From: a virus
DNA length: 64,000 nt
Reading direction: 5' to 3' (one strand)
Virus record (IMG/VR): IMGVR_UViG_3300044833_000182
Location: 32,109-96,108 of that record
Shown: piece after piece, positions 2,571 to 19,499 of the stretch
How the letters are laid out: each line of letters opens with the position of its first letter
Position numbering within the stretch: the stretch's first letter is position 1
Program-made: the position numbers and the translations under genes
The notes under the pieces: model-generated
What the model was told of the DNA's origin: nothing
Database searches by the model: none
Seen by the model: the letters and a program-made list of their open reading frames with translations, nothing else

Positions 2571-3404
2571 TCAGGTGGATTCGATCAGATCCCACACCCG
2601 ACGACGGTAGTCTTCCCGGATCGCCTTTGCCCCTTCTGGCGTGATGTGATCGCAGAGTGGCGGAAGGTCGGAGTCGGCTTCTTTCCACGACGAGACGCCG
2701 GGGAATGCCCGCGAGAGGACAGGCCACCAGTGGGGATCGTTCAGCGGAGCGCCCCTTGCGTTCACGTCCCAATAGTCATCGGTTGTGAAGTCGGCGTCTT
2801 GGTCGCCATCGACGAGGGTCTGATGGAGAACGGCGTAATACCAATACCGCGGATCGTCCTCGCACGGCGCGATCTCGACGATGCGAACGACGGGCTTGCC
2901 CATTTCCAAGGGCGTGTGCGTATCGCCCCGATAGGACTTCCCCGGCAGCAAGGGCGGCATCGGAACGGAACCGGGCACAGCGGCCGTCTGTTCGACAGCC
3001 TCTTCGGCGTCCATCTGAGCGAGCGCCGGGGCTTCCGGTTCGACCTGCGGAGCATCCATCTCCGTGAGGAGTTGCAAGGCCCCGTCAACGGTGAGGGGCG
3101 GTTCGCCGGCCTCTTCACGGAGGCGGATCGGCTCTTCGAGACGGTGCCAGTTCTCGGCGAGACGCATGCGCACCTGTGCGGTCCGGAGCGGGGCGCGGAA
3201 ATTCTTCTGGACGAAAGGAATCCATCCGCCGTGGCCGACGAGTGGCTTTGCCTCCAAGAGAACGCGGCCGACATGGACGGCGTCGGCGAGAGAGGCAGTG
3301 GTGTGCCGGAGTTCGCTGCTGTAGTAGTCGTTCGCCCGCTGGCACAGCGCAAGCGCCTGCTGCTGGGACGACACGACGATGGCCGGGGGATTGAGGTTCT
3401 TCAC
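2571..3404 (-). CDS. DUF3102-like phage protein
   Basis: A 277-residue protein; GTG start at 3404 (VKNLNPPAIVV) with a GGAGAG ribosome site 7 bases before it. The segment VGRVLLEAKPLVGHGGWIPF...NFRAPLRTAQVRMRLA (residues about 35-75) is the DUF3102 signature, a domain often found near replication or partition genes in phages and mobile elements. The C-terminal 120 residues contain many acidic and aromatic positions and are unrecognised. It follows the small regulator at 3470 on the same strand, probably as one operon. Confidence 0.65.
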   Translation of the reverse strand: MKNLNPPAIVVSSQQQALALCQRANDYYSSELRHTTASLADAVHVGRVLLEAKPLVGHGGWIPFVQKNFRAPLRTAQVRMRLAENWHRLEEPIRLREEAGEPPLTVDGALQLLTEMDAPQVEPEAPALAQMDAEEAVEQTAAVPGSVPMPPLLPGKSYRGDTHTPLEMGKPVVRIVEIAPCEDDPRYWYYAVLHQTLVDGDQDADFTTDDYWDVNARGAPLNDPHWWPVLSRAFPGVSSWKEADSDLPPLCDHITPEGAKAIREDYRRRVWDLIEST

Positions 3405-3469
3405 GATGTCTCTCCGTGGAGGATGGGTGAGGCCAAAAGCGCAGGATGTCTGCGCATTTGAGGGACTGC

Positions 3470-3739
3470 TTACCTCTTGTCCGTTGGGTCTGGATGGTCC
3501 TTCTTGAACTTGCCGTAGTCCCGAAGGACGTTGGGGCGGAGGTAGCCGTCGATCATCTGGGCAATCTTCATCCGCTTGTTGCGACTGTCGCGAGTGAAGA
3601 AACACATTTCACGGATCATCTCCAGGAGATCAACAGCGATGCGAGCGGTCTCCGACTCCGGCTCTTTGGACGCATCGTCAGGGGGAGGCGACGGAGGCTT
3701 CTTGCCCATGATTGGCTCCAGCAAGAACACTGCCGACAT
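3470..3739 (-). CDS. Small RHH-like regulator, copy 1
   Basis: An 89-residue protein starting at ATG 3739 (MSAVFLLEP), preceded by GGGAGGC. Its N-terminus (LLEPxxxKKxPSxPP) and core (TARIAVDLLEMIREMC ... LRPNVLRDY) match the minus-strand protein at 18786 residue by residue, which also fixes the start. The core resembles the ribbon-helix-helix-like small proteins abundant in planctomycetes. It is transcribed away from the long plus-strand operon, a repressor-like arrangement. Confidence 0.6.
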   Translation of the reverse strand: MSAVFLLEPIMGKKPPSPPPDDASKEPESETARIAVDLLEMIREMCFFTRDSRNKRMKIAQMIDGYLRPNVLRDYGKFKKDHPDPTDKR

Positions 3740-3791
3740 TGTGACGCCTCCCGATGTTACCCGCGACAAGTGGAAACGGACAAGCCATTTA

Positions 3792-3820
3792 AGTATACCA
3801 GGGCGACGATTCTGTGACAA
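3792..3820 (-). promoter_or_regulatory. Sigma-70-type promoter for the minus operon
   Basis: On the minus strand TTGTCA (3815-3820) is separated by 17 bases from TATACT (3792-3797). It would drive the regulator at 3739 and the DUF3102 gene after it. It lies back to back with the plus promoter at 3863. Confidence 0.7.
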
Positions 3821-3862
3821 GGGATTTTAGCCCCGATTTCCAGTTTCCAGTCACAAATCACC

Positions 3863-3891
3863 TTGACACCAGTTACTCACCCTGCTAAGAT
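3863..3891 (+). promoter_or_regulatory. Sigma-70-type promoter for the plus operon
   Basis: TTGACA (3863-3868), a 17-base spacer and TAAGAT (3886-3891). The -35 reads TTGACAC, as in the promoters at 19180 and 38850 that also face a small minus-strand regulator. Confidence 0.75.
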
Positions 3892-3937
3892 ACACATCAG
3901 TCACCCAACCACCGCCCGCCCCTCCGGAGCTTCGACC

Positions 3938-4099
3938 ATGACGACCACAAAGACTTTCGCGAAATCGATCAAGTGCCAGGTCTGCGGCTGCACCGTGATG
4001 GTGGCGCGCACCGCGAGGTTGCCGGTGCGGACGTGTCGGGCGCTGGCCCTGGCGAACCATGTCCAGACACTGCACTCGCACCTGCTGCCGCGGAAGTGA
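3938..4099 (+). CDS. Small zinc-finger-like protein
   Basis: A 53-residue protein starting at ATG 3938, after the promoter at 3863 and a CCGGAG ribosome site. It has CQVCGC near residue 14 and NHVQTLHSH near the end, a plausible C2H2-like zinc site. No function recognised. It is the first gene of the long plus-strand operon. Confidence 0.55.
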   Translation: MTTTKTFAKSIKCQVCGCTVMVARTARLPVRTCRALALANHVQTLHSHLLPRK

Positions 4100-4140
4100 T
4101 ATTTCCACCTTTGCCTTCGCCTCCTCCGGAGCCTCCCGCC

Positions 4141-4629
4141 ATGTGCGCCACCCCGACCGCCGCCCCCGCGACCCGCCCGACGCCCTGCATCATCGCCGCA
4201 GGCAGCGTGGTCAGTTTTCAGTGCGCCCACGGCGAACACGCGAGGTGCCGGGTGGAAGCATGTGCCTGCTCCTGCCACAAGCCGAAGACGCCCGCGGCGG
4301 CAACGGTCGCCGCCCGCCCGACGCCCCGCAGCAAGCCCGCCCGCACGCTGCGCATCCTGTGCCGCCCCGCCCCGGGCGAGTTGGTGGTGGAAGTGACGGC
4401 CAGCGACGGCCGGAACATGTATCACGTCTTCGCCTGCCCGCCGTTCAGCGGCACGGGGCGCGCGTGGATCTGGCAGGGGCTCGGCCGCAAGACCGGGTCG
4501 CGCTACGAAGTGAATATGGGCAGTGGCAGCGGCGACGGGCAGGGCGGGTCGTGCGAGTGCAGGTCGCGGGTGACGTGCCGCCACCGCAGCGCCACCGAAG
4601 CCTTGTTGGCGCGCGGCGACCTGTCCTGA
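4141..4629 (+). CDS. SWIM zinc-finger protein
   Basis: A 162-residue protein; ATG 4141 follows CCGGAGCC. Near the C-terminus CECRSRVTCRH has the CxCx5CxH spacing of a SWIM zinc finger, a DNA- or protein-binding element. A second Cys/His patch (HGEHARCRVEACACSCH) lies at residues 28-45, separated by a Pro/Ala linker. The upstream in-frame extension to 3973 overlaps the previous gene and is not needed. A second SWIM protein is at 20687. Confidence 0.6.
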   Translation: MCATPTAAPATRPTPCIIAAGSVVSFQCAHGEHARCRVEACACSCHKPKTPAAATVAARPTPRSKPARTLRILCRPAPGELVVEVTASDGRNMYHVFACPPFSGTGRAWIWQGLGRKTGSRYEVNMGSGSGDGQGGSCECRSRVTCRHRSATEALLARGDLS

Positions 4630-4666
4630 TTGTTGCCTCACACCCTTTACCTCGGAGGATCGAGAG

Positions 4667-4936
4667 ATGGCAGACCATACACCCGGCCCGTGGAAAGTGC
4701 TGCCGAAGAGCAGCCACCTCAGCATCATGGAAGGCGACGAGTGGAGCGCCGTCCCTATCTGCGATGTCTATATCGCGTCGCGCCCAGACGAGGGGAAAGC
4801 CAACGCCCGGCTGATCGCCGCCGCGCCAACGATGTACGACCTGTTGCACGAGATCCGGCATCGTGTCCCGGCCGGCAGCGAAACGCACGGGTTGATTGCC
4901 GCCGTGCTGGACGAGATCGACAACGGCGCGCCCTGA
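4667..4936 (+). CDS. Phage HTPGPW-type conserved protein
   Basis: An 89-residue protein beginning MADHTPGPWKV and containing ANARLIAAAPTMYDLL, the two hallmarks of a small protein family found in very many tailed phages. The function is unknown. Its presence supports the phage identity of the region. A GGAGGAT ribosome site precedes it. Confidence 0.75.
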   Translation: MADHTPGPWKVLPKSSHLSIMEGDEWSAVPICDVYIASRPDEGKANARLIAAAPTMYDLLHEIRHRVPAGSETHGLIAAVLDEIDNGAP

Positions 4937-5049
4937 CCGCTAACCCAGCCCGCCCCTCGCCCCCCCCCTCGCCCCCGGGGAGTGCAGCCCGTCCGCCCCC
5001 GGCGGCGTCCTCCCGCGACGACGAGTAACCCAAACACTACTGGAGCGAC

Positions 5050-5238
5050 ATGAGCATTAACGAGGCTGTGGAATCTCTGAGGCAGAAACTTGGAGAACCC
5101 GACGTGTTCATCGTCCGCCATGACGGCACGACGATAACGGTCGATGTGAACTTCGTCTACCGGGTCGAGGAAGTGAAAGCACTTGGCGACAAGTGGCAGG
5201 ATTTCCCCCTGCAAATCGGTAGGCGAAGTTGTTGGTGA
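5050..5238 (+). CDS. Hypothetical small protein
   Basis: A 62-residue protein (MSINEAVESLRQKLGEP) with a beta-rich centre (DVFIVRHDGTTITVDV). A GGAG site lies 6 bases upstream of the ATG. Nothing recognisable; coding potential rests on the ribosome site and spacing in the gene train. Confidence 0.5.
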   Translation: MSINEAVESLRQKLGEPDVFIVRHDGTTITVDVNFVYRVEEVKALGDKWQDFPLQIGRRSCW

Positions 5239-5299
5239 GAACACAGTGCGGCGCGTCCGCCCCCGGCGGCGTGTGGCCGGGGAGTAAGGAGTCCAAGCT

Positions 5300-5818
5300 A
5301 TCACCGAACTTCACGCCGACAACCTGAGCAACCGCCTGCGGGAATGCTCCTTCTCGTTCGATCGGGCAATGGCTTCCGGAAACTGGCCAGCCGCCATGCG
5401 CCTGTGGCTTGATCTCCTCGCCGCTTACAGTACGGTCATTCGCGAGGCGCGGTCGGCCAGCGTCGAGAATGACGCCCTGTCCGCGGAACTGAAGGTCTAC
5501 CGCCCTACCCGCACCGGCCGGCCAGCAGCGCCATTCCTCGAACGGCACATCTACGTCTTCACGGCGCGATCTCCGTGGGTGTGCGCGGCGGTGGAGTTGC
5601 GTCAGACAATTCAGATACCACCTATCTTTGGAGGCGGATATTATCAGGAGCATTACGTTCCAGAGAAAAAGACGGTGTGCGGGAAAACAACGTCCTACCC
5701 GGTGTCGGAGCGGTTTACGTCGGGCGGGTGGCCGCGCCTGCATGAGTTGTGCCCCGAATGCACGACGGCGCTCGTCAAGGCGGGAGCATTCCCCGTCGAA
5801 CCTATCACCGGTAGTTGA
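5300..5818 (+). CDS. Hypothetical zinc-binding protein, possible ATC start
   Basis: A well-formed AAGGAG (5286-5291) lies 8 bases before an ATC codon at 5300, with no ATG nearby; the next in-frame ATG is 5369, 69 bases later. The intervening codons (ITELHADNLSNRLREC) look coding, so initiation at ATC, or an ATG mutated to ATC, is likely. The 172-residue product has a helical N-terminal half and a C-terminal VCGK...LCPEC cysteine pair set that could bind zinc. Function unknown. Confidence 0.55.
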   Translation: MTELHADNLSNRLRECSFSFDRAMASGNWPAAMRLWLDLLAAYSTVIREARSASVENDALSAELKVYRPTRTGRPAAPFLERHIYVFTARSPWVCAAVELRQTIQIPPIFGGGYYQEHYVPEKKTVCGKTTSYPVSERFTSGGWPRLHELCPECTTALVKAGAFPVEPITGS

Positions 5819-5827
5819 GGAGTCAAC

Positions 5828-6178
5828 ATGCCGACTGAACCACCAGCCCCGCTGTCCAGCGCCGAGGGCGCCGTCCTCTACCTCTTGCGGCGCATCGCCC
5901 GCGATCCGGGCCTGCGCTGGCTAATGCTCCACACCCAGGCGTTCGGCAAGCTATGCGAGGCGGAAGCTCTTCGCACCGAAACGACGGTGGACGCTGTCGA
6001 GAAGAAATACGGCGTGCCGTGCCAGGAGGGGAGCGTCGAACTGGTCCGGCTGCGGAAGGTCAAGGAGGCAGCGGAAACGCTGATCGAGTTTATCGAGCAA
6101 GACGGCGGGAAACTACTCTTCAAGGAATCCAGTGTTGTGCTGGATCTGCGCGCCGCCCTGTCGAAAGACGGTGAGTGA
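5828..6178 (+). CDS. Hypothetical helical protein
   Basis: A 116-residue, mostly helical protein (MPTEPPAPLSS), preceded by GAGGAG. No family recognised. Its stop is followed by a 90-base spacer to the next gene. Confidence 0.55.
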   Translation: MPTEPPAPLSSAEGAVLYLLRRIARDPGLRWLMLHTQAFGKLCEAEALRTETTVDAVEKKYGVPCQEGSVELVRLRKVKEAAETLIEFIEQDGGKLLFKESSVVLDLRAALSKDGE

Positions 6179-6270
6179 CGGCCGGCAAGCAGCGTCAGGG
6201 CGAGAACGAAGCGGCGGCCCGCGCGGGCGCCGGTGTACGGGGAAGCGGAGACCTTTTAAGGAGAATCACG

Positions 6271-6708
6271 ATGGAGAACTGGCGGAAGGTGTTTCGCGAC
6301 GGTCTGGCTCCCCTGCTCTCCGTGGAGCATTTGGAGGCTTTGAAAGAGGCGCTGGAGAGTGACGATCCTGCTCTGCTGCAAGGCTCAACAATGATGCCTC
6401 CATTTTACCGATCTGAATGGTTGGTGGAAGGCGCATGCTTGCTGGCTTACCCATACGCGGCTGTCAATGGAGGTTTTCTGCACGACGACGATCCCTCCGA
6501 ACTCAACATTGAAGCGGCGCAGGCTGGCGACGTTGAGGCATTCTTCGCGCAAACGTGTTCTGGCATCGATCAACGGCTGGCGGACGCGGAAGAACCAACA
6601 CCCCACCAACTCCTGCTGGAATGGTTTGACGAGACGCCGCGCGACGAGATGCGCATCAACCTCCTTCCTGAAATCGAGCGCGAACTGACGCGGCGCGGCG
6701 GTCTCTGA
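6271..6708 (+). CDS. Hypothetical acidic protein
   Basis: A 145-residue acidic protein; ATG 6271 (MENWRKVF) is chosen because AAGGAG sits 8 bases before it, while the in-frame extension to 6175 reads as spacer. No domain recognised. Confidence 0.6.
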   Translation: MENWRKVFRDGLAPLLSVEHLEALKEALESDDPALLQGSTMMPPFYRSEWLVEGACLLAYPYAAVNGGFLHDDDPSELNIEAAQAGDVEAFFAQTCSGIDQRLADAEEPTPHQLLLEWFDETPRDEMRINLLPEIERELTRRGGL

Positions 6709-6736
6709 CTCCTGACTTCCCGGCCGGAGTCCACGG

Positions 6737-7012
6737 ATGGCGACGTATCCGATCACCGGCCCAGACGCTCAGATCCTTAACGCTGGAGCGGTATGTACCT
6801 ACCTCGGTTGCGAGTTGCGCACTCTCCGCCGCTGGATCGAGGCCGGCCGCTTTCCCCGGCCCCGGCGCGTCGGCCGAACGCGGTTCTGGACCGGGCAGGA
6901 CATTGCCGCCTATCTGTCCCTTGAAGGCCGGTATGTCGTCGGCCCGCAGGAAACTGATGACGAGGAACCGCCGAAAAAAAGCAAAAAGAAGGGCGAAACG
7001 CCGCCCGGGTAA
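6737..7012 (+). CDS. Excisionase/MerR-type HTH protein
   Basis: A 91-residue protein. Residues 14-65 (LNAGAVCTYLGCELRTLRRWIEAGRFPRP, RTRFWTGQDIAAYL) form the helix-turn-helix and wing of HTH_17/excisionase proteins, with a conserved Trp in the recognition helix. The tail is Lys-rich (KKSKKK). Likely a DNA-bending or regulatory protein. Confidence 0.7.
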   Translation: MATYPITGPDAQILNAGAVCTYLGCELRTLRRWIEAGRFPRPRRVGRTRFWTGQDIAAYLSLEGRYVVGPQETDDEEPPKKSKKKGETPPG

Positions 7013-7030
7013 AGGATTCTTTCGGTGTCA

Positions 7031-7080
7031 CTCGCGGCCACTGATGACCACTGGCGTACATCTCGCGGCCACTGATGACC
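7031..7080. repeat. 19-bp direct repeat, two copies
   Basis: CTCGCGGCCACTGATGACC occurs at 7031-7049 and again at 7062-7080, 31 bases apart (three helical turns), just upstream of a promoter. This spacing suits a pair of regulator binding sites on one DNA face. Confidence 0.6.
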
Positions 7081-7119
7081 GGGCAAAGCCGATGCCAAAA
7101 AATAGAGAAAATGTAGCTG

Positions 7120-7147
7120 TTGACAGCATGGAAATCGCGTGTAATCT
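7120..7147 (+). promoter_or_regulatory. Sigma-70-type promoter
   Basis: TTGACA (7120-7125), 16 bases, TAATCT (7142-7147), in a locally AT-rich patch 31 bases before the next start codon. The 19-bp direct repeats end 40 bases upstream. Confidence 0.6.
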
Positions 7148-7177
7148 TCTTGAGTCGCCTGCGAAAGGCCCTCGACC

Positions 7178-7486
7178 ATGACGAGCGAAACGCGGCTCAT
7201 GTCCGCCTTGCACGACCTGCCCGCGGGCAACGCCGAGCCCGCCGCCAGCGCACCGCAACCGGCTGCGAAGGTGCTGTCTCCGATCAAACTCCCCTGCCCG
7301 TTGTGCGGAGAGGAAGACGCTGACATCAGCGTGCATCTGGCGAACCTGGGGAGCGGTGAAGAGTTCATGTGCGACGACTGCGGCGAGGACTTCAGCATCG
7401 CCGAGGTTCGCCGGTTCATCGCCCGATGGACGCCGATTTTGGATTGGTTGAGCGCCATTCCGACGACGCCGCCCGACGCCGAGTAA
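7178..7486 (+). CDS. Zinc-ribbon protein
   Basis: A 102-residue protein with CPLCGEED (about residue 40) and CDDCGEDF (about residue 67), the two CxxC knuckles of a zinc ribbon. First gene after the 7120 promoter. Function unknown. Confidence 0.6.
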   Translation: MTSETRLMSALHDLPAGNAEPAASAPQPAAKVLSPIKLPCPLCGEEDADISVHLANLGSGEEFMCDDCGEDFSIAEVRRFIARWTPILDWLSAIPTTPPDAE

Positions 7487-7523
7487 CGCCCCGCACCCCT
7501 TCGCCCCGACATGAGGCCACCAC

Positions 7524-7841
7524 ATGCTCACCCGCTCCCTCCGCACGCCGTACCCCCTGCCCACCGACGCGCCACCGCGCCGGCGCATCACGGAGGTTGA
7601 GGCCGCCGTCATGGTGTCGGCCGTGGGCGGCCTGGCGGACCTGGTGGCCGTGCGGAAGACGCTGGCGATGTTGCTCAACTGGGACCGCGAGCAGCAGGAC
7701 CGCGAGATCGAGGCGGCGCGGCGCAGCGGCCGGGTCACGGGGACGGCGCGCGAGGGACGCAACGGTGTGACGGCCGAGCAGCGGGCGACGGAGACGGCGG
7801 ACGGGTGCGGGTATCTGAGCATCCGCGAGGAGGGGGCATGA
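7524..7841 (+). CDS. Hypothetical protein ahead of the methyltransferase
   Basis: A 105-residue basic, Arg-rich protein. Its stop overlaps the methyltransferase start (ATGA at 7838), so the two are translationally coupled. Could be a partner of the enzyme; nothing in the sequence proves this. Confidence 0.55.
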   Translation: MLTRSLRTPYPLPTDAPPRRRITEVEAAVMVSAVGGLADLVAVRKTLAMLLNWDREQQDREIEAARRSGRVTGTAREGRNGVTAEQRATETADGCGYLSIREEGA

Positions 7842-9073
7842 TCGCAACCGCAAAGGACGTGCTGGAGGGACGGGCGGCGTGGGCGTGTGACCCGGCCGAC
7901 AACCTCGTATGGCTGGCCAGCCTTCCTGCGAGCTGCTGTTCGCTTTCGGTCACATCCCCGCCATACGAAGGTCAGAGACTTTACGGAGCCGTCAAGTTCA
8001 AGCTCGTGGGTCAGGCGTGGGTGGACTGGATGATTCCGCGCGTCGTCGAGATGTGCCGGGTCGTCAACGGTCTGGTGTGTATCAACATGAGCGGTTGCGT
8101 CGAGGATCGGATGTATCACCCCGTCGTCGAGTGGTTGGTTGCCGACCTGACGCGGAATCATGGTCTGGTGTGCGGCCCCGCCCCCTACGTCTTTTTCCGC
8201 TACGGTATCCCCGGCTCGGGAGGGTCGGGAAAAATCGACCGCTACCACCGGCGGGATTGGGAACCGGTGTACGCCTTTGCCCGTCTGGAGAACCTGCCGC
8301 TGAAGTGGACGGACGCGACGGCGATGGGGCATCCGCCGAAGTGGGCGCCGGGTGGGGAGATGAGCAATCGGCTGAAGAACGGCCAGCGCGTCGGCAAGTT
8401 CGGTGCGGGCGGAAGCAGCAACAGCAAGGGAGGTATGGGCCGTAAGAAGAACGGCGAAATGGAACCGACGCGCAACTCTTCCCTGGCGGAAACTGTGATC
8501 GTTGGCGGCGAGACTCCCGGTCTGTTCGGCCCTGTCGAGGAACCGCCAGCCGATCCCTACGGCCACGACCGCGCGACTTCGGGCGGCAAGAGAGCGAACG
8601 GCGAGCGGAAACCGCCAACGAAGCACGTCACCCGTCGCCGTCACGGCGACGGGGAGCGCGACGACGGCCAGTATGAACCGCCCGTTTTGGCGAACCCCGG
8701 GAATGTGATCAAGGCGCTGTACAACGCCGAAGAAGTCCGCCAACTCTTTGACGACCTCGTGACGCAGAAGATCGAGCCTGGCGACGTGGTCCGTTGTCTC
8801 GTCGGCGGCGGTCTGATGGGGCATCCGTTGTGCCACCGCAATGAAGCCCCGTTTCCAGAAAGCCTCGTGGAGTTCTTCATCCGTTCCTACGCCGCTCCCG
8901 GCAGCATCGTCCTTGACGCCTTCTCCGGGAGTGGTACGACGGGCGCCGTCGCGGTGCGGGAGGGGCGGCGGTTCATCGGCGCGGACGTGCGGCCCGATCA
9001 GATCGAGGTTGCCCGGCAGCGGATTAGTGGCGAGACGCCGTCTCTCTTCGCCGCGCAGGAGCCCCCGCCCTGA
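7838..9073 (+). CDS. DNA methyltransferase, SPPY (beta) class
   Basis: A 411-residue protein; ATG 7838 overlaps the previous stop. TSPPY at residues 39-43 is motif IV and DAFSGSGTTG near residue 365 is motif I, giving the IV-then-I order of beta-class amino-methyltransferases. SPPY is more usual for N4-cytosine enzymes, DPPY for N6-adenine, so N4-methylcytosine is the best guess. A low-complexity Gly/Ser/Arg insert occupies about residues 185-290. No restriction endonuclease is adjacent: probably an orphan protecting phage DNA. Confidence 0.85.
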   Translation: MIATAKDVLEGRAAWACDPADNLVWLASLPASCCSLSVTSPPYEGQRLYGAVKFKLVGQAWVDWMIPRVVEMCRVVNGLVCINMSGCVEDRMYHPVVEWLVADLTRNHGLVCGPAPYVFFRYGIPGSGGSGKIDRYHRRDWEPVYAFARLENLPLKWTDATAMGHPPKWAPGGEMSNRLKNGQRVGKFGAGGSSNSKGGMGRKKNGEMEPTRNSSLAETVIVGGETPGLFGPVEEPPADPYGHDRATSGGKRANGERKPPTKHVTRRRHGDGERDDGQYEPPVLANPGNVIKALYNAEEVRQLFDDLVTQKIEPGDVVRCLVGGGLMGHPLCHRNEAPFPESLVEFFIRSYAAPGSIVLDAFSGSGTTGAVAVREGRRFIGADVRPDQIEVARQRISGETPSLFAAQEPPP

Positions 9074-9210
9074 CGAACCACCCCCTCCGGCCGCGCCAGG
9101 CCCCGCTCGTTGCGGAATCAGCCTGGCCGCCGCGGTTCACGCCCGCGGACGCATCCCTTGCCGGCCGGGATGGGGAGTTTTCAGATCGCCCGCAACCGAA
9201 GGAGCAACCT

Positions 9211-9648
9211 ATGGGAACTCGCGCCGACGTATATCTCGGTCGCGGCGAGCAGGCTGAATGGCTCGGCAGTATCGCCTGGGACGGCGACCCTGACGGCGTC
9301 CAGGCCGCGCACCGCACCTACGGCGAACACGGCCGCGCCATGCTGCGGGCGACCGACGAGAAGGCGTTCCGCGAGGCCGTCAAGGCGTTCCTCGCGGCGC
9401 GCGAGGACGACGCCACCCTCCCGGAGATGGGCTGGCCGTGGCCGTGGGAGAACAGCCGCACCACGGATTTCGCCTACGCCTTCGACGGCGGCAAGGTGTG
9501 GGCGTCCTGCTTCGGTTATGCGTGGTTCGATCCGCTGCTGCCGATGCCGGAAAGCGACGGGCCAAAGTCGGCCGTTTTCCCGGACATGACGCATCGCCAG
9601 AAGGTGACGATGGGGCCGCGGTCGGGGCTGATCGTGCTGGGAATGTAG
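9211..9648 (+). CDS. Conserved phage protein (GTRADVYLGRG family)
   Basis: A 145-residue protein starting MGTRADVYLGRGEQAEWLGSI, a beginning I have seen in phage hypothetical proteins. It is Trp-rich in the middle (GWPWPWEN). Function unknown. Confidence 0.6.
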   Translation: MGTRADVYLGRGEQAEWLGSIAWDGDPDGVQAAHRTYGEHGRAMLRATDEKAFREAVKAFLAAREDDATLPEMGWPWPWENSRTTDFAYAFDGGKVWASCFGYAWFDPLLPMPESDGPKSAVFPDMTHRQKVTMGPRSGLIVLGM

Positions 9649-9651
9649 CGA

Positions 9652-9770
9652 ACCATCCCGGGCCGCGCCGCCGCGCCGAGAGCGTCGGCAGCGTGACACG
9701 CCTTCCTGCCCCGGCTCGTTGCTGGCGGCGGGTGGGCGGCCCGGGGGAAGGAAACAAAGGAGAAGACGAC
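9652..9770 (+). other. GC-rich structured spacer
   Basis: CCCGGGCCGC shortly after the stop pairs with GCGGCCCGGG before the next ribosome site (10 bp), enclosing GCCGA/TCGGC and other pairings. Similar spacers, sharing GCTCGTTGC, lie at 9074-9210 and 14968-15066. A structured mRNA leader or recombinogenic spacer; no T-run for a terminator. Confidence 0.4.
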
Positions 9771-10040
9771 ATGGCATGCCCCACATGTAATGCGACGATG
9801 GCAAACCTTGGCCTGGAAAGCGAACGCGTCTTCCACTGCGCGACGTGCGGGACGGTCAAGAGCGTGGACGCGAACGGATTCGAGAACGTGACCGTTCCCG
9901 CACTCGTCGGCCGGGTGCGCGACTGTCTCAAGCAGTCCATCGCCGAGCCGCGCAGTTTCTCCGTCGCCGCGTGGTACTTCAGGGCGGCGTGCGAGGCGGC
10001 AGGCCTCGAGGTGGACGCTGTGAAGCAGGATTCACCGTGA
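9771..10040 (+). CDS. Zinc-ribbon phage protein
   Basis: An 89-residue protein with CPTC and CATCGT knuckles at residues 3-30 (zinc ribbon), then a helical domain. ATG 9771 follows AAGGAG. Function unknown. Confidence 0.6.
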   Translation: MACPTCNATMANLGLESERVFHCATCGTVKSVDANGFENVTVPALVGRVRDCLKQSIAEPRSFSVAAWYFRAACEAAGLEVDAVKQDSP

Positions 10041-10041
10041 G

Positions 10042-10126
10042 ACCAGCCGGCCGGACACGCCTTTTCATGAGGCGTTGGGGCGCACCCCGCAGACGACTGG
10101 GCAACGTCTGCGGGCGTCCGGCTGGT
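10042..10126 (+). ncRNA. Three-way-junction RNA candidate
   Basis: ACCAGCCGG (10042-10050) pairs with CCGGCTGGT (10118-10126). Inside are two hairpins: ACGCC/GGCGT (10057-10075) and CCCGCAGACG/CGTCTGCGGG (10086-10114, 10 bp). The whole fills the gap between two genes. No known RNA family recognised. It may be a regulatory mRNA element rather than an independent RNA. Confidence 0.4.
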
Positions 10127-10151
10127 GGATAGACGCCCGGAGGAAGCAACG

Positions 10152-10403
10152 ATGCCTGAAGACCCCATCGACCAGATCGCCCGCGAGCTTGGCCTGGGAG
10201 CCACGAACCGTTACCCACACGGCAAGAACGCCCCCGATGACGAGGGCGAACTGAGGGCTGGCGTCACGCTTCAGGACGAGTTCATCATCCTGGCGTTCGG
10301 CAAGCCGGTGTCATGGGTAAGCATGACGGCGGCGAATGCCCGAGAGATAGCGGCGCTATTGCTGAAGAAGGCTGACGCGCTGGACGTCGCACGGCGAAAC
10401 TGA
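10152..10403 (+). CDS. Hypothetical phage protein
   Basis: An 83-residue protein; ATG 10152 follows GGAGGAAG. The end (ANAREIAALLLKKADAL) is a helix pattern seen in several phage hypothetical proteins. Function unknown. Confidence 0.55.
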   Translation: MPEDPIDQIARELGLGATNRYPHGKNAPDDEGELRAGVTLQDEFIILAFGKPVSWVSMTAANAREIAALLLKKADALDVARRN

Positions 10404-10433
10404 TCGCCCTTCACCCAACCGAAAGGACACACC

Positions 10434-10889
10434 ATGACCCTGAACGAACAGCCGCCGCTCGACGCCGACCGCTGGGATGACGCCGCCTACCGCGACGAAC
10501 TGCTGCTGCGCGTGCTCCCGGAGTGTCTCTGGGACGACGCGAGCGGAGACTACTCCACGCCAGAGGAGGCGAACAAGCGCGCCGAAGACTTCGTCGCGGA
10601 GGCCATGCGCCGCCGGGCGGCAAGGCGCAAGAAGCGGCAGACGGACGCGACCGGCGCAGACGACTCGCCCAGCTTCATCGGCGCGGCCATCCACCGGATC
10701 GACGGCGAGGAGCGGCGGCGCCGCCGGGACGCGCGGCCGGACGCCGTGGCGGCGAGGCAGCAACGCCGCCACCCGTCATGGACGCCGCGACAAGGTCCGA
10801 AGCCATCTCCCTGTCCGGGCAGGAAGCGCTCGACGCGCTTCTCCGCGACCGGGAACGGCACAAGGCGATCCGTCGTCAGGAGCCGCTGA
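10434..10889 (+). CDS. Hypothetical protein, possibly frameshifted near 10770
   Basis: A 151-residue frame. The first ~110 residues (MTLNEQPPLDADRWDD onward) look coding, rich in Asp/Arg helices. The last ~40 residues read like an out-of-frame shadow of the gene at 10778. Either the true gene was shifted near 10770 or the two genes overlap by 112 bases. Confidence 0.45.
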   Translation: MTLNEQPPLDADRWDDAAYRDELLLRVLPECLWDDASGDYSTPEEANKRAEDFVAEAMRRRAARRKKRQTDATGADDSPSFIGAAIHRIDGEERRRRRDARPDAVAARQQRRHPSWTPRQGPKPSPCPGRKRSTRFSATGNGTRRSVVRSR

Positions 10890-11044
10890 ACAGCGAGCCC
10901 GAGCCGGACGGCCGGTGTGCGGCGGGCGAGTGCGAAGTGATCGAAGTGGTGGACCAGCGGGAAGAGGCGTTACAGTTCCGAATCGTCGGTGGGGGCGAGC
11001 CCGAGAATATCCCGCACCACTATGAGGCAGACTTGCGGGACTGA
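10778..11044 (+). CDS. Hypothetical protein overlapping the previous gene
   Basis: An 88-residue frame (MDAATRSEAISLSGQEAL) with good coding character through to the stop, but no clear ribosome site before ATG 10778. It may be the true continuation of the 10434 gene after a frameshift. Confidence 0.45.
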   Translation: MDAATRSEAISLSGQEALDALLRDRERHKAIRRQEPLNSEPEPDGRCAAGECEVIEVVDQREEALQFRIVGGGEPENIPHHYEADLRD

Positions 11045-11179
11045 GTCACGAGGAAGCGCTACCTGCGGCGTGCCACATTCGCGGTTCCTAGGTTATCGCG
11101 TCATAGGCGTCAGCAGGAACCCCCGGACGCCCGCCCATAACGGCGGGGCCGCGTCGAGAGGCGCGCCGTAGCGACGGTC

Positions 11180-11301
11180 GGGGGACTTTGCCCCTGTGCA
11201 TGGTGCATTCGACGAACTACTGCCGGTCTGGGCGCTGGGGCCGAAACCCCGTGCGACCCCATTCCGGCAGCGTTGATCGGGTTCGATTCCCGGCCGGGGC
11301 C
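11180..11301 (+). other. Structured spacer with a tRNA-like T-arm
   Basis: CTGCCGG (11220-11226) pairs with CCGGCAG (11264-11270) around GGGG...CCCC, and TCGGG-TTCGATT-CCCGG forms a T-arm ending near 11300. The 3' CCGGGGC finds only an imperfect partner (GCCCCTG, 11188) at a 113-base distance, and no proper D-arm or 7-base anticodon loop is seen. So it is tRNA-like but not called as a tRNA. No gene in 11045-11327. Confidence 0.35.
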
Positions 11302-11327
11302 TGAACAGAACTACGGAGAAACCAGCT

Positions 11328-11870
11328 ATGGAACGCTCCCCACCCGACGCCCCCACGCTCTCCGACCTGGCCGGCCGCGCCCGCGAACTGGCCGACGCCC
11401 TCGCCGTGTCCCCGCCCTGCACGGAGGCGATAGCGGGGCGGGCGTCGTGCCTCTCTCTGAAGGAACAGGAGTGGCGGCGATTCCGAGACCTGCGCAACGT
11501 CCCCTCCCTGACGCTCTACCGCCGGTTCGGCGAGCACGACCTCTGCCAGCCGTGCCGCGCCTACTGGTTCGCCCGCCGCTGCGAGATGGTGGTGCAAGAG
11601 ATGCTTGACGCCGCGCCGCCGCCAGAAGCGCCGGCCGTTGCGCCGCCCGCGTTCGACCCGGCAGCGTGGTTCCAGCAGACGCGGCCGGGGTTTCCCGTCG
11701 CCTGCTTGGGGGCGGTAATGGTTCTCCCCGCGATGACCGATTGCCCTCTCGGCTCCCTCGTCCCGCTGGCAGAGTGGCTCCTGGAGCAGCGGCCGGATTT
11801 AGAGGGGGCGATTCACACGGCCGTGCTGGAGCTGACGCGGAATGAGGATTTGAACGCGGCGGGGTGCTGA
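11328..11870 (+). CDS. Hypothetical protein with CxxC motif
   Basis: A 180-residue protein. Residues 60-90 (DLCQPCRAYWFARRCE) hold a possible metal site; the rest is helical with an Ala/Pro-rich middle. Preceded by GGAG. Unrecognised. Confidence 0.55.
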   Translation: MERSPPDAPTLSDLAGRARELADALAVSPPCTEAIAGRASCLSLKEQEWRRFRDLRNVPSLTLYRRFGEHDLCQPCRAYWFARRCEMVVQEMLDAAPPPEAPAVAPPAFDPAAWFQQTRPGFPVACLGAVMVLPAMTDCPLGSLVPLAEWLLEQRPDLEGAIHTAVLELTRNEDLNAAGC

Positions 11871-11938
11871 GGATGAGGGGATGCGAGGAGATTGAAAGCA
11901 GACGAGAATTTGGGCGGATATAGCGGAAGGAGATCCAG

Positions 11939-12499
11939 ATGACGAAAAAGGCAAGTCCGAAAAAGGCGAGTCGCCGCGTAAGCGTGAGCGACCGTGCCAG
12001 CGAAATCATTCAGAGGACGTGGGGGGATGTCCCCGTTCTCGATGCCACGGAGAATTTGCGCGTATTCATTCTTCCGGAAGACACGGTCGGCGCAGTCCGA
12101 AAAGATCCTGGATGCTGCGTCTTCGCGCGTGCATGCCAACGCACCTTTGGGGCAACAAAGGTTCTCTTTTTCCGCTCCGTTGCCTACGTCGAACTTCCCG
12201 ACGACGCGGGCAAGAAGCGGGTCGAGAGGTTTACCATGACCCCGGGCATGCGCAAACTCGTCGAGGCGTTCGATGCGGGGAAAAGCGTGATTCCCGAGGG
12301 TGGCTTCCTGCTGAAAGCACCTACTTACAGCAGGACCTTTGAACACTCCCGCGCCAAGAAAACCGCACAGCGGGAGCGGCAGAAGTTGCTCGGCAAGGCA
12401 GAACGAAAAGGCAACGCGGGCTCTGGCAGATACGAAGACGCTCCGCTCGTCGTTGATCTTTCTGTCCGTTCAGGTACGGGAGCCGTCCATTTCTCCTAG
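11939..12499 (+). CDS. Hypothetical basic protein
   Basis: A 186-residue protein with a Lys/Arg-rich N-terminus (MTKKASPKKASRR) and a middle domain (CCVFARACQRTFGATKVLFFRS in pieces) that reads like a folded alpha/beta unit. AAGGAG precedes the ATG. Function unknown; a DNA-associated role would fit the charge. Confidence 0.55.
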   Translation: MTKKASPKKASRRVSVSDRASEIIQRTWGDVPVLDATENLRVFILPEDTVGAVRKDPGCCVFARACQRTFGATKVLFFRSVAYVELPDDAGKKRVERFTMTPGMRKLVEAFDAGKSVIPEGGFLLKAPTYSRTFEHSRAKKTAQRERQKLLGKAERKGNAGSGRYEDAPLVVDLSVRSGTGAVHFS

Positions 12500-12541
12500 A
12501 AGGACGGTTCGCCCGGATGCTGAACACAGGAGACCGGCACG

Positions 12542-12724
12542 ATGCCCACACTCACCCGATGGACGCCCTTCGCGGCAGGCGTCTGCAAAAAGCTCAGGCG
12601 CTGGCTGCTGTTCGCAGCCGGCATGCTGCTGGGGACTTTGGAAGCCACCCTCTGGCTAGGCGAGTACGAGTTGCTCGCGGCGGCGCTGATGTTGATGGAA
12701 GCGGCGGTGGGAGAGACCTACTAA
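12542..12724 (+). CDS. Small membrane protein
   Basis: A 60-residue protein with a hydrophobic stretch (WLLFAAGMLLGTLEATLWL) after a basic start (KKLRR), and a second hydrophobic segment behind it. It fits an inner-membrane topology with one or two spans. GGAG lies upstream. Confidence 0.5.
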   Translation: MPTLTRWTPFAAGVCKKLRRWLLFAAGMLLGTLEATLWLGEYELLAAALMLMEAAVGETY

Positions 12725-12745
12725 CGCCCTGAAGAGAAAACGCTG

Positions 12746-13324
12746 ATGCTCGCCGCCGAAGAAGACGCCCTGATCCGCCTCCACTGGCCTCTGGCCCGCC
12801 TCCTGGCTGGCAAGCACGGTCGCGGCCGTCTGCGCTCCGACGACGGCGAGCGCCTCAGCGACGCCCTGCTTGGCCTGCTTCGCGCCGTCCGCACTCACCG
12901 CCCGCACTGGTTGCACCTGCACGCCTGGATCGAACGAAAGGTTAGAGGCGCTCTCCTCGACGGCGACCGCGAGCGGAGCGTGATGTCACGGTCACTGACG
13001 AAAGAAGTTGTCGCCGGCCGTCGCGAGGCCCTTCACCCTGCGACGAGACAGGAATTGCCTGATGGGATTTTCAGTCTGCCTGACTGCCGTGAGGAGGCTC
13101 CCGATGCTTCCCTCGTGCGCCGGGACCTGCTTGGCCGCCTGCTGCGCGACCTCAGCGTCAGCGAGCGCTCGACGGTTGAGCGCTATTACCTCGACGGTCT
13201 GACCCACGCGCAGATTGCAGCGGCGGACAGTCTCTCTCGGACGGGCGTCTTGCGGCGTCTCACTGATCTGATGCAGCAGTTGCGCGAGAAGGCCGCGCTG
13301 CTGGCCGAACGGGAGAAACGCTGA
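12746..13324 (+). CDS. Sigma-70-like transcription factor
   Basis: A 192-residue protein. The N-terminal half (HWPLARLLAGKHG, LSDALLGLLRAVRTH) resembles sigma region 2; the end (LSVSERSTVERYYLDGLTHAQIAAADSLSRTGVLRRL, in pieces) is a region-4 helix-turn-helix of the -35-binding type. Probably redirects RNA polymerase to phage promoters. The stop overlaps the next start (TGATG). Two other sigma-like proteins lie at 18341 and 49339. Confidence 0.75.
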   Translation: MLAAEEDALIRLHWPLARLLAGKHGRGRLRSDDGERLSDALLGLLRAVRTHRPHWLHLHAWIERKVRGALLDGDRERSVMSRSLTKEVVAGRREALHPATRQELPDGIFSLPDCREEAPDASLVRRDLLGRLLRDLSVSERSTVERYYLDGLTHAQIAAADSLSRTGVLRRLTDLMQQLREKAALLAEREKR

Positions 13325-13941
13325 TGCCCGCCGCCGACTTGGCCCGCCGTTCCACCTGCCGCCCGGGACTGACGAGCCGCAGCTACCGCCGGGAGCACCC
13401 GTCGAAGGCGCTGGCCCCGGCCAGCGATTGCTGCCTGCTGGACGCGGCCCGACAGGAGAGGATCGCCCAGCACGCCGCCCGCCGCCGAGAGGGAATTGCC
13501 GTGACGCGACAATCGATCCTCGCCGAAGTGTCTGCCGAACGCGACCGTCAGGACCGCGACTACGGCGCCAGGCATGATGACGGCCTTCAGCGAAACGACT
13601 GGTCTGCCATCGCCGCCCGTCATCTCGGGCTCGCTTCCAGCGACGGCGCGGAGACGGACGCCGACCGCTGGCGTCGCCAACTCATCCGCCTCGCAGCCGT
13701 TGCCGTGGCCGCCATCGAGTCAGCCGACCGCAAGGGCCAATCTCACCCGGAACTGGCGGCACGATTGCAGGCGCTCGCCGATCAGCACTGCGAGCCCGTG
13801 TTGCTGCTGGCGGACGGTGCGCCCGGGATGGAGTACCGGTCGCGCACTCCCTACGGCGTGTTGCTGAGTCAGGCGAGCGGGTGGGAGAAGGCAAATCAGA
13901 TGAGGACGATTGAGCCAACGAAAATGGAGGGCGTCTCGTGA
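13324..13941 (+). CDS. Phage conserved protein (AERDRQD family)
   Basis: A 205-residue protein. From residue 60 it carries ILAEVSAERDRQDRDYG ... HDDG ... LIRLAAVAVAAIES, a pattern common in phage proteins of unknown function. The overlap TGATG with the sigma factor supports ATG 13324; GTG 13501 would give only the conserved domain. Stop overlaps the kinase start. Confidence 0.65.
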   Translation: MPAADLARRSTCRPGLTSRSYRREHPSKALAPASDCCLLDAARQERIAQHAARRREGIAVTRQSILAEVSAERDRQDRDYGARHDDGLQRNDWSAIAARHLGLASSDGAETDADRWRRQLIRLAAVAVAAIESADRKGQSHPELAARLQALADQHCEPVLLLADGAPGMEYRSRTPYGVLLSQASGWEKANQMRTIEPTKMEGVS

Positions 13942-14462
13942 AACGCTGCCTTATTTACAGAGGCTTGCCGGGCGCCGGAAAAAGTACGGCGGTTCGCTGG
14001 CGTCGAGCATCCCTCGCCTGGGACGGCGTCGAGTTCGTGGTTTGCTCTTCAGACGATCACTTCATCGGGCCCGACGGCGTCTATCGCTTCGCGCTCGCCG
14101 AGTTGCCTGATGCTCACGCCGCATGTCAGCAGAAATGCCTGGACGCAATGGCCCGGGGCGTCAGCGTGGTCCTGATCGACAACACCAACGTCACCGCGAG
14201 GGAGTGCAGGCCATACGTCGATCTCGCTCAGCGGTACGGCTACACCGTGGAGTTCGTCGAGCCCAGCACGCCGTGGGCGTTCGACCTGACGGAGTTGAGC
14301 AACCGCAACACGCACGGCGTTCCCTTGGCGACCCTCCAGCGGATGCTGTCGCGATGGGTTCCCGACATGACCGTGGAGAAGGCGCTGACGGCCGACCCCG
14401 CGCCTGGGAAGCCGACCAACGATGAACGATGCGCCGATCTCGCCCGGGAGGTGCGGAAATGA
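13938..14462 (+). CDS. P-loop kinase, AAA_33/N4BP2L-like
   Basis: A 174-residue protein from GTG 13938. GLPGAGKST at residues 9-17 is the Walker A loop, SDDHF and VVLIDNTNVT follow as in AAA_33-type (N4BP2-like) nucleotide or polynucleotide kinases. Length fits a free-standing kinase domain. A HAD phosphatase at 34769 could be its 3'-phosphatase counterpart in nucleic acid end repair; this pairing is only inferred. Confidence 0.75.
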   Translation: MKRCLIYRGLPGAGKSTAVRWRRASLAWDGVEFVVCSSDDHFIGPDGVYRFALAELPDAHAACQQKCLDAMARGVSVVLIDNTNVTARECRPYVDLAQRYGYTVEFVEPSTPWAFDLTELSNRNTHGVPLATLQRMLSRWVPDMTVEKALTADPAPGKPTNDERCADLAREVRK

Positions 14463-14749
14463 GCAAATCCCTCAACCTCGACCGCCTCTCCCCTGACGAC
14501 CTGCGCCGTCTGGTTGTCGTCCTGATCAGCCGCCTCGACCAGGCCCGCATGGGCGAACGCGACGCCGGACGCAGTGCGACCAGGGCGACGCTGCAAGCCG
14601 CGGCAGCACTGGCAAACGAGCGGCGAGCGGTGCAGGAGACGATCGAAGCGGTTCGCGGCGAGCGGGACGCTCTGCGCTGGGCGGCGGAGGCGGAGCGGGA
14701 GGTGCGGGGGCTGCGATGGATGCTGAAGCAAGAGAGGAGGAGAAAGTGA
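14459..14749 (+). CDS. Coiled-coil protein
   Basis: A 96-residue highly charged protein; ATG 14459 overlaps the kinase stop. Residues 40-96 form a probable coiled coil (AEAEREVRGLRWMLKQERRRK in part). Stop overlaps the next GTG start. Confidence 0.6.
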   Translation: MSKSLNLDRLSPDDLRRLVVVLISRLDQARMGERDAGRSATRATLQAAAALANERRAVQETIEAVRGERDALRWAAEAEREVRGLRWMLKQERRRK

Positions 14750-14967
14750 GCTACAACCGCGAGAGCCTGATTCCGTTCTCAACCTGGAAACACGTCGTGA
14801 CCGGGTCGTTTTACACCGTCTTCGGCATTGCCTCCTGCTCCACGAACGGGCCGCGCGAAGGAGTGGAGGAATCCGTGGTCTACGTCAGCCACACATACGA
14901 TGGGTTGCTCTACCGCGAACTCAGCGAATTCACCGATGGCAGATTTGAGCCGGTTACGCCCACCTGA
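14746..14967 (+). CDS. DUF1653-like protein
   Basis: A 73-residue protein from GTG 14746. It matches the DUF1653 pattern: a GSFYTVFGIASCS strand pair, then ESVVYVSHTYDGLLYRELSEF. These are small single-domain beta proteins of unknown role, frequent in phages. Confidence 0.6.
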   Translation: MSYNRESLIPFSTWKHVVTGSFYTVFGIASCSTNGPREGVEESVVYVSHTYDGLLYRELSEFTDGRFEPVTPT

Positions 14968-15066
14968 AGCCGCGGCCGGCGGCGGGTGTGCGGGCGCTCG
15001 CTCGTTGCGGACAACATCGCTGGGCTCGCGCCCGATGGCCGGCCGTGAACGGATCTGGAGGGGAAA
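14968..15066 (+). other. GC-rich structured spacer
   Basis: CGGGCGC pairs with GCGCCCG (7 bp) inside a GGCCGG-type outer pairing; CTCGTTGCGG is shared with the spacer at 9107. No gene; a GGAGGGG ribosome site ends it. Confidence 0.4.
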
Positions 15067-15672
15067 ATGATCAGCTTGATTGTTGCCATGACCAAACGCG
15101 GCGTCATCGGGGACAGCGGCCGAATCCCCTGGCACTGTCCGCCGGACCTGAAGCGGTTCCGTGATCTCACGATGGAAAAGGCTGTCGTCTTCGGTCGCAA
15201 GACGTGGGAGAGCATCAGCAAGCCGCTTCCCGGACGGCGCGTCTGGGTCCTCACGCATCGACCGGACCTGTACGAGACGGCAACGGCCGACGACCCGGAT
15301 TACTTCGGACATCTATGGGAGCAATTGGTGCATCTGGGCGCTGGTTGGCCGGAGGTGCTGATCTGCGGCGGCGCGTCGGTGTACCGGCAGGCGCTCGCTC
15401 TGACCACGCAACTCGGGGGAATCGACTGGAAGAAAGCGCCGCCGATGGTGACGCGGATGTATCTCACGGAGTTGGACGCCGACGTTCCCGGTAGCGTCTT
15501 CTTCCCGCCGTGGGACCGCGGCGTGTGGCGAGTGATCTCGTCGGAGCGGTGTGAGGGCGACGGGCCGAACGCGATGCCGCACACGTTCAGCGTCCTGGAA
15601 CGTTCCGGGAGAGCGGTTCCCCCGGGCTCTTCGCCCGCAACCTCCTTGTCAGAGGGCGCGCCTATGGGCTGA
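15067..15672 (+). CDS. folA: Dihydrofolate reductase
   Basis: A 201-residue protein that reduces dihydrofolate with NADPH, sustaining thymidylate synthesis. ISLIVAMTKRGVIGDSGRIPW at the start (in pieces), the DLKRFRDLT helix, FGRKTWESI (NADPH-binding), and LICGGASVYRQAL are the diagnostic motifs, in order. The last ~25 residues after HTFSVLERS are a low-complexity extension. Phages often carry it to supply nucleotides; no thymidylate synthase is in the window. Confidence 0.9.
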   Translation: MISLIVAMTKRGVIGDSGRIPWHCPPDLKRFRDLTMEKAVVFGRKTWESISKPLPGRRVWVLTHRPDLYETATADDPDYFGHLWEQLVHLGAGWPEVLICGGASVYRQALALTTQLGGIDWKKAPPMVTRMYLTELDADVPGSVFFPPWDRGVWRVISSERCEGDGPNAMPHTFSVLERSGRAVPPGSSPATSLSEGAPMG

Positions 15673-15760
15673 CGTGATAGTGAAGGCAGGTTGGGGCGCG
15701 GCGGCGTCTGCTGGCAATCGAACGCCGCCGCGCGTTTCGCCCGGGAAAGGAGCATCGACG

Positions 15761-15973
15761 ATGGAAGACAACAAAGATCCTCAGGGGTGTTTCTACTGCT
15801 GCCTCGCCGCGGTGCATGTCTGCTCTGGGTCCGGCGGCTGCGGCAAGCCGATCTGCGTCGTTCACAGCCAGCCTTACGATGGGGGCGGCGGCTGGCGGTG
15901 CCAGACGATTCTGACGCCAGCAGCTGAACTGGCGGTCACGCCCGCCAGCGAGGATGACGGTTCGCCTGACTGA
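15761..15973 (+). CDS. Cys-rich small protein
   Basis: A 70-residue protein with CFYCC, CSGSGGCGKPIC and a later CQT: a likely zinc-binding fold. ATG 15761 follows AAAGGAG. Unrecognised. Confidence 0.55.
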   Translation: MEDNKDPQGCFYCCLAAVHVCSGSGGCGKPICVVHSQPYDGGGGWRCQTILTPAAELAVTPASEDDGSPD

Positions 15974-15986
15974 GAGAGGAGACGCG

Positions 15987-16178
15987 ATGAAGGCATACAC
16001 CTGTACGCAAGCCGAGCCCTGTCCGGAGAAGCGCGCCAAGGCGGAGACTCCCGCGGGGCATCTGTTCATCGTGAACCATCCCGACGCCGCGAAAATGGAA
16101 GTCATGGAAACGGACGGCAAGGGCGCAGAACACAAGCGCATGGCGAATGTGTGTCCCCACTGCCGGGAAATCTGGTGA
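15987..16178 (+). CDS. Small protein with C-terminal CPHC
   Basis: A 63-residue protein (MKAYTCTQAEPCPEKR) ending in NVCPHCREIW, giving four Cys for a zinc ribbon. GAGGAG precedes ATG 15987. Confidence 0.55.
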   Translation: MKAYTCTQAEPCPEKRAKAETPAGHLFIVNHPDAAKMEVMETDGKGAEHKRMANVCPHCREIW

Positions 16179-16189
16179 GGAGCGACCCC

Positions 16190-16354
16190 ATGAAGAAGCA
16201 CATCTTGCACTTCGCCCAGCTCCGCCACCGCGGCGAGCGCATCCACCCCCGGCACCGGCGGGATCGGGCGTTGTGGCGGGTGGTGCTGCGGGTGGTGCTG
16301 CGGGCGGTGGCGCCGCTGGTACGGCTACGGAAGGAGGAACAATCATGGGCATGA
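16190..16354 (+). CDS. Very basic small protein
   Basis: A 54-residue Arg-rich protein (MKKHILHFAQLRHRG) overlapping the next start by 10 bases. Its second half is a tandem repeat of WRVVLRVVLRAV type, encoded by repeated GGGTGGTGCTGC. GAGG precedes it. May be real or fortuitous. Confidence 0.35.
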   Translation: MKKHILHFAQLRHRGERIHPRHRRDRALWRVVLRVVLRAVAPLVRLRKEEQSWA

Positions 16355-16623
16355 ACCCTGAACAGCGAGCAACGGTGTACGCGGACAAGATCGCCCAATC
16401 CTTCGGGATGGACAACAAGGACCGCAAGGAGGTGTATCTGCTGTTCCTCGAAGCACTCAAGGCGCAACAGGCGGACGCAATGCAGCCGCTGGTAACGATC
16501 CGCGACATTGCCCGCGAAGCGCCCGAAGGCGAACACGGCAGCGCGGACGAGGTTGTGGCCCGGTTGGGGGAGATTGCCCGCGACGCCCTGCGGCAGACGC
16601 TGGATCTGGAGGGGGACGCCTGA
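16345..16623 (+). CDS. Hypothetical helical protein
   Basis: A 92-residue acidic helical protein (MGMNPEQRATVYADKI); GAAGGAGG precedes the ATG. The stop abuts the next start (TGATG). Unrecognised. Confidence 0.55.
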   Translation: MGMNPEQRATVYADKIAQSFGMDNKDRKEVYLLFLEALKAQQADAMQPLVTIRDIAREAPEGEHGSADEVVARLGEIARDALRQTLDLEGDA

Positions 16624-17036
16624 TGATGACCCAGAACGATTGGGACCGCCTACAAACCATGATCCGAGAGGAGTTGGCGCGCGACGGCAAACTGCGGGTG
16701 GACGTGGACGTTCTCTCCGCCCTCATCGGCGAGAAGCTCGCCCCCGTCGTCGCCGGCGCCGTGGCCGTCATGCAGGAAATGCGCGAGCGTGACCGGAAGG
16801 CCGCAGGACACCGCGCCGCCCTGGAGCGAATCAGACTCCATGCCAACATCGGCGAACCATACTCCGCTGATGTCGCCCGGGAGGCGCTCGCCGGCACCAG
16901 CGAGAAACCAGCCGACCCCTGCCGCACCGCCCTGGAGCGCATTGCCCGTGAGTGCGGGGCGAGCCCGCAAGAGGCTACCGGCGTGCTGGCGGCGCGGATT
17001 GCAGGGGAAGCGCTGAAGCAGGAGGAAACGACGTGA
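16623..17036 (+). CDS. Hypothetical helical protein
   Basis: A 137-residue protein with two copies of ALERI(R/A)-type helices (residues about 63 and 103), suggesting internal duplication. The stop overlaps the next GTG start. Confidence 0.55.
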   Translation: MMTQNDWDRLQTMIREELARDGKLRVDVDVLSALIGEKLAPVVAGAVAVMQEMRERDRKAAGHRAALERIRLHANIGEPYSADVAREALAGTSEKPADPCRTALERIARECGASPQEATGVLAARIAGEALKQEETT

Positions 17037-17737: not shown

Positions 17738-17840
17738 ACCACCCTTCCCCGGCGTGCGGCTTGTCGCCGCCGTCCCGCACTCGTTGGGCGCTTGCGCTGG
17801 GCCGGGAGAGGGGGACTTTCGCCAGTGAAGGAGGAACGCG

Positions 17841-18326: not shown

Positions 18327-18340
18327 TAGGAGCAACGCCG

Positions 18341-19463: not shown

Positions 19464-19499
19464 ACCCCATCGCTCCTTCACCCCACGAGGTCACCTACC

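Follow-up and report, generated by a model that had tools for sequence, protein, structure and literature searches.

Within the 64,000-b window analysed here, which is the last part of a 96,108-b IMG/VR record whose first 32 kb were also read, module 1 (3470-3940) comprises a small minus-strand gene, reg1 (3470..3739), and a plus-strand operon that diverge from one promoter region, a 198-b and AT-richer gap (3740..3937). This divergent regulator/operon layout is repeated at 18.8 kb with reg2 (18786..19067, minus strand) and at 38.5 kb with reg3 (38496..38741, minus strand). The gaps of modules 1, 2 and 3 measure 198, 189 and 183 b and have GC contents of 0.54, 0.49 and 0.52, compared to 0.64 in the window. 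Genes are those called by a codon model, plus reg2, reg3 and the HNH gene next to reg3, which the caller skipped and which were added on homology. Nearly all called genes of the window lie on the plus strand; clearly on the minus strand are reg1 and a DUF3102 gene, reg2, reg3 and the HNH nuclease gene, and the genes in the neighbourhood of an IS630 transposase; those flanking the transposase are the sole well-scoring minus-strand coding genes of the window outside the three modules. As minus-strand genes are nearly confined to the modules, each module stands at the head of a plus-strand gene run, of about 15, 19 and 24 kb respectively, which would constitute one continuous operon.

Gene content of the three runs and of the phage

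The second minus-strand gene of module 1 (2571..3404) encodes a 277-aa DUF3102 protein (Pfam PF11300, E 4e-7), and between this gene and reg1 there is a hairpin (3434..3460, minus strand, 10/11 pairs, the minus strand ending in CTGCGCTTTTG) that is possibly a weak terminator or attenuator. On the other side of the gap, the module 1 run (3938..18730, plus strand, about 32 called genes) encodes an excisionase-like HTH protein, an N6/N4 DNA methylase, a kinase-like AAA protein, a dihydrofolate reductase (15067-15672, plus strand; PF00186, E 3e-41) and a sigma-70-family factor (12746-13324, plus strand; TIGR02937, E 1.4e-13, above the cut-off) that may drive later phage transcription. The called genes of the module 2 run (19257..38204, plus strand) include those for a primase/helicase-like AAA protein, a second DNA methylase, a metallopeptidase-like protein and an HNH protein; this run also holds a 1.0-kb stretch (33767-34768) with no convincing called gene. 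The called module 3 run (38925..62891, plus strand) is broken by an IS630-like insertion, whose transposase (45173-46120, minus strand) lies against the direction of the run and adjoins a gene for an XRE-type HTH protein (46675-46926). Further along this run we observed a terminator-like perfect 10-bp G+C stem followed by TTTCTGTTT (49126-49151, plus strand) and a TnpB RNA-guided nuclease of an IS200/IS605-type element (53386-54465, plus strand).

PHROG matches in the record to a portal protein (E 3e-40), a major head protein (E 4e-22), a tyrosine integrase (E 2e-21) and a primase/helicase-like protein indicate that the uncultured source is a temperate tailed phage. Slightly downstream of the integrase gene, within a called ORF, there is a perfect 11-bp inverted repeat (GACACAGGTTC/GAACCTGTGTC, 737-763). 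Two phage proteins (17033-17737 and 37067-37789, both plus strand) contain the TIGR02996 (rpt_mate_G_obs) domain, and the integrase relatives that we found belong to planctomycete MAGs (31-33% identity), suggesting that the host is probably a planctomycete, perhaps a Gemmata-like one; Gemmata genomes are expected to be rich in the TIGR02996 domain. The GenBank phage collection contained no DNA resembling the window's first 20 kb, and a search for related phages with g12, the major head protein and the primase gave one remote head-protein relative and no close phage. Searches for Rfam families and tRNAs gave no match.

Promoter-like sites are concentrated in the three gaps

The back-to-back promoters that an earlier note had placed in module 1 were found on both strands: P1 minus (3792..3820) consists of TTGTCA (3820-3815), a 17-b spacer and TATACT (3797-3792) with an extended -10 (TGG), and P1 plus (3863..3891) of TTGACA (3863-3868), again a 17-b spacer, and TAAGAT (3886-3891) with an extended -10 (TGC before the -10). 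The same note had the design recurring in the other two modules, and the layout does so; the plus promoter of module 2, P2 plus (TTGACA-N17-TATACT, 19180..19208), is the best promoter-like site of the record with 11/12 matches, but in P3 plus (TTGACA-N16-TAAGAT, 38850..38877, extended -10) the spacer is 16 and not 17. On the minus strand, the promoter is good in module 1, whereas modules 2 and 3 have promoters that are weak or of the extended -10 type, the likely P2 minus being GTGTCA-N19-TACAAT (19125..19155).

All these promoters are matches to a sigma70-like consensus, which taken alone constitute weak evidence. In a scan of the whole 96,108-b record, six sites had at least 10/12 matches, compared to about 1.1 expected per record from a first-order Markov simulation with the same dinucleotide make-up, and four of the six (3820 on the minus strand; 3863, 19180 and 38850 on the plus strand) fall in the three module gaps. 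As had been proposed, all three plus promoters have TTGACAC as their -35; this heptamer occurs 11 times in the record and therefore means little by itself, and it is both half of the module 2 box described below and simply a good -35. P1 plus and P3 plus are similar (CCTTGACA and CTG[C/G]TAAGATACA; p 0.014), so that the modules with the more similar plus promoters are 1 and 3, whose regulators are unrelated. We rejected shared operators as the basis of this likeness, which is confined to the promoter hexamers and their edges.

An array of operator-like boxes in module 2

The module 2 gap contains four GTGTCA-N-TGACAC boxes within 109 b, at 19094, 19143, 19174 and 19190, one of them perfect and three with 2 mismatches. 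The box/dyad search located O1 (GTGTCGATGGCAC) at 19094..19106; O2 (GTTCCAGTGACAC, 19143..19155) overlaps the -35 area of the likely P2 minus; O3 (GTGTCATTGACAC, 19174..19186), the perfect dyad, spans the P2 plus -35; and O4 (GTGTCAGTAGCAC, 19190..19202) occupies the P2 plus spacer, between -35 and -10. Repeated operator-like sites thus overlap both promoters, and this placement would be the arrangement expected of an autoregulated repressor. The rest of the 96-kb record has one further box with at most 2 mismatches (at 48679), and the dyad score of the module 2 gap is 6, whereas 40 dinucleotide shuffles reached 4 at most. Among the perfect dyads of the record (n=259), the other clusters with at least 4 near copies within 150 b are low-complexity G+C-rich runs.

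No dyad, word repeat or operator repeat exceeding shuffles was found in the module 1 gap, nor any GTGTCA-N-TGACAC box even when 3 mismatches were allowed, and the single match in the module 3 gap, with 3 mismatches, is merely the -35 TTGACAC. When aligned, the module 1 and module 2 gaps were no more alike than shuffled sequences. The cross-talk between modules that the earlier note considered possible is therefore unsupported, as the module 2 box is missing from modules 1 and 3; these comparisons argue against such cross-talk rather than prove its absence. The lack of boxes in the module 1 gap, together with the dissimilarity of the two gaps, indicates that reg1 and reg2 have most likely diverged in DNA specificity.

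The regulators of modules 1 and 2 are paralogs of an apparently undescribed family

reg1, a putative repressor of 89 aa, is a codon-model call with its ATG at 3739, GGAGG upstream, and a GC content by codon position of 0.56/0.39/0.76. reg2 (93 aa, GTG at 19067) has a weak codon signature. The paralogy of both proteins, already asserted from the sequence, was borne out by their alignment: 38% identity over 47 aa (E 6e-11) and, with every called protein of the phage as the comparison set, 34.6% (E 7e-9) over 81 aa beginning at Met 1, with basic and aromatic positions common to both. That this alignment runs from the first methionine supports the start codons at 3739 and 19067.

Relatives of reg1 and reg2 were found neither in IMG/VR, GTDB contigs, GenBank phages and plasmids, nor in 23 phage records sharing another gene, nor in 392 genomes from the phylum to which a Sedimentisphaerales MAG belongs; the genomes sampled included none rich in TIGR02996, and the likely host group falls outside them. 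Twelve genomes from one class with large genomes gave weak matches only, mostly over the proline-rich part, and matches obtained with loose profiles proved to be at chance level when checked by eye. The two proteins would then form a family undescribed in the collections searched, with no detectable relatives.

The description of the regulators as RHH-like does not extend to this pair on present evidence. RHH matches to reg1 or reg2 were absent from Pfam, PHROGs, NCBIfam and PDB sequences, and hhalign against an RHH set (Arc, CopG and reg3) gave a probability of 0.1%; the single match of a hand-written generic RHH-like probe failed to align to reg2 and was discarded. AlphaFold models were built from a two-sequence alignment. 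That of reg1 is an all-helical two-helix hairpin with no strand (block-mean pLDDT 85-91 over residues 31-80), that of reg2 is of low confidence, and fold searches with both gave generic helical matches only. Profile, PDB-sequence and fold searches, taken together, returned no family or fold that would place reg1 or reg2 among DNA-binding proteins. The RHH label is thus unproven for these two, and the shallow alignment behind the models leaves room for such a fold.

The toxin gene that should adjoin the regulator in a type II toxin-antitoxin system was recognised beside none of reg1, reg2 and reg3: the same-strand neighbours are the DUF3102 protein and the HNH nuclease, and reg2 has no neighbour on its strand.

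An Arc-like protein in module 3

For the 38.5-kb protein the RHH assignment fares better, with weak Arc/RHH matches. reg3 (81 aa) has five weak PHROG matches, led by the Arc-like family phrog_3178 (E 1.3e-3), and matches to Pfam RHH_5, TraY and Arc below the cut-off; its NGRSxxxEI motif, which includes the G-x-S turn between the helices, aligns with Arc. These sequence-level matches, weak as they are, suggest that reg3 is an Arc-like RHH protein. It also matches a RelB-like antitoxin model weakly. We rejected reg3 as a third paralog, as sequence comparison gave no relationship to reg1 or reg2. The second minus-strand gene of the module (38134..38499) encodes the HNH endonuclease (PF01844, E 9e-8). 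At the start of P3 plus there is a 23-b palindrome (AGTGTCGCCACGGTGACGACACT, 38881..38903) with a partial copy near P3 minus (38802-38820); it is a weak operator candidate, as palindromes just as good occur at many positions of the record. Its interpretation as an RNA hairpin was unsupported (z -0.23).

Discussion

We propose that this temperate phage carries three repressor switches, each local and autoregulated, and that the regulators of two have been duplicated and are by now insulated, a reading that we hold to be moderately probable. Each small minus-strand gene would encode a DNA-binding repressor that occupies the shared gap, shuts the plus promoter of a long early operon and keeps its own transcription in check; when the repressor is lost, on induction or early in infection, host RNA polymerase would transcribe the operon. 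We infer repression as the sign of this control and lysogeny as its setting. In module 2 the four GTGTCA-N-TGACAC boxes would be the repressor sites, presumably bound by reg2, and another factor could also be their reader. A duplication would have given rise to reg1 and reg2, now reading different sites, so that modules 1 and 2 are probably insulated from each other, and module 3 would be controlled by an unrelated Arc-type RHH repressor. The idea of the earlier note that several copies of a switch set separate operons agrees in part with these data, namely with three divergent units heading separate gene runs, two of them with duplicated regulators. It is also possible, though we regard it as doubtful, that the early half of the genome as a whole consists of three operons with separate switches, of which two would be governed by duplicated repressors from an undescribed family whose DNA sites have become different and insulated, the sigma factor of operon 1 possibly linking the operons in a cascade.

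The coupling of two operons by paralogs that bind both control regions appears very unlikely to us. The paralogy of reg1 and reg2, with its shared basic and aromatic positions, and the presence of half a module 2 box (TTGACAC) in all three plus promoters could be taken in its favour, but the module 1 gap has no box at up to 3 mismatches, the module 3 match is the -35 itself, and the similarity of gaps 1 and 2 stays at shuffle level. The recognition of no DNA-binding domain in reg1 and reg2, the weak RelB-like antitoxin match of reg3 and the XRE-type HTH protein of the phage would fit small proteins that are antitoxin-like or accessory, with the module 2 boxes belonging to a host factor or to a phage regulator such as the XRE protein (46675-46926). 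However, none of the three regulators has a recognised toxin partner next to it, and the boxes are confined to the gap adjoining reg2, as for a local regulator, which makes this explanation rather unlikely.

The regulators could also time the early phase of a lytic programme, with the sigma-70-family factor of operon 1 (TIGR02937, E 1.4e-13) driving the next stage. We give this only a small chance, as the integrase and the excisionase-like HTH proteins suggest a temperate phage, and immunity regions typically contain divergent repressor/operon units with autoregulation. Finally, the genes could be ordinary small genes whose promoter-like matches have been over-read, since consensus matches are weak when taken alone and module 1 has no operator repeat; the concentration of the best promoter-like sites in three gaps, the paralogous regulators and the box array make chance highly improbable. 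If the three-switch reading is true, the phage is a natural example of a duplicated repressor whose binding sites have since diverged within a single small genome, and could serve in the study of the origin of new regulatory specificities; it also offers control elements open to testing in a phage from a host group, probably planctomycetes, few of whose phages have been studied.

Small autoregulated RHH regulators such as CopG and the FitA/RelB-type antitoxins control plasmid and toxin-antitoxin loci through palindromic operators over their own promoters; here, in contrast, no toxin partner was recognised and the RHH assignment is supported for reg3 only. In lambda-like cI/cro regions and in the immB regions of N15, PY54 and phiKO2 (PMC4488713), the repressor gene and an early operon likewise diverge, and operators lie across both promoters. 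Compared to these systems, the proteins of this phage are small, one-domain and of another family, and the layout is present in three copies, two with paralogous regulators. Among known systems, immI of P22 comes closest, being a second immunity region of a temperate phage that is run by small repressors; there the antirepressor gene is under the control of mnt, arc and the sar antisense RNA (PMC2629481), and the NGRSxxxEI motif is common to Arc and reg3. However, in the phage described here there are three modules, each heading a gene run of 15-24 kb, reg1 and reg2 are not recognisably RHH proteins, and no antirepressor was found. This kind of switch is known, and its tripling here, with duplicated and apparently insulated regulators of a new family, is a variation on it.
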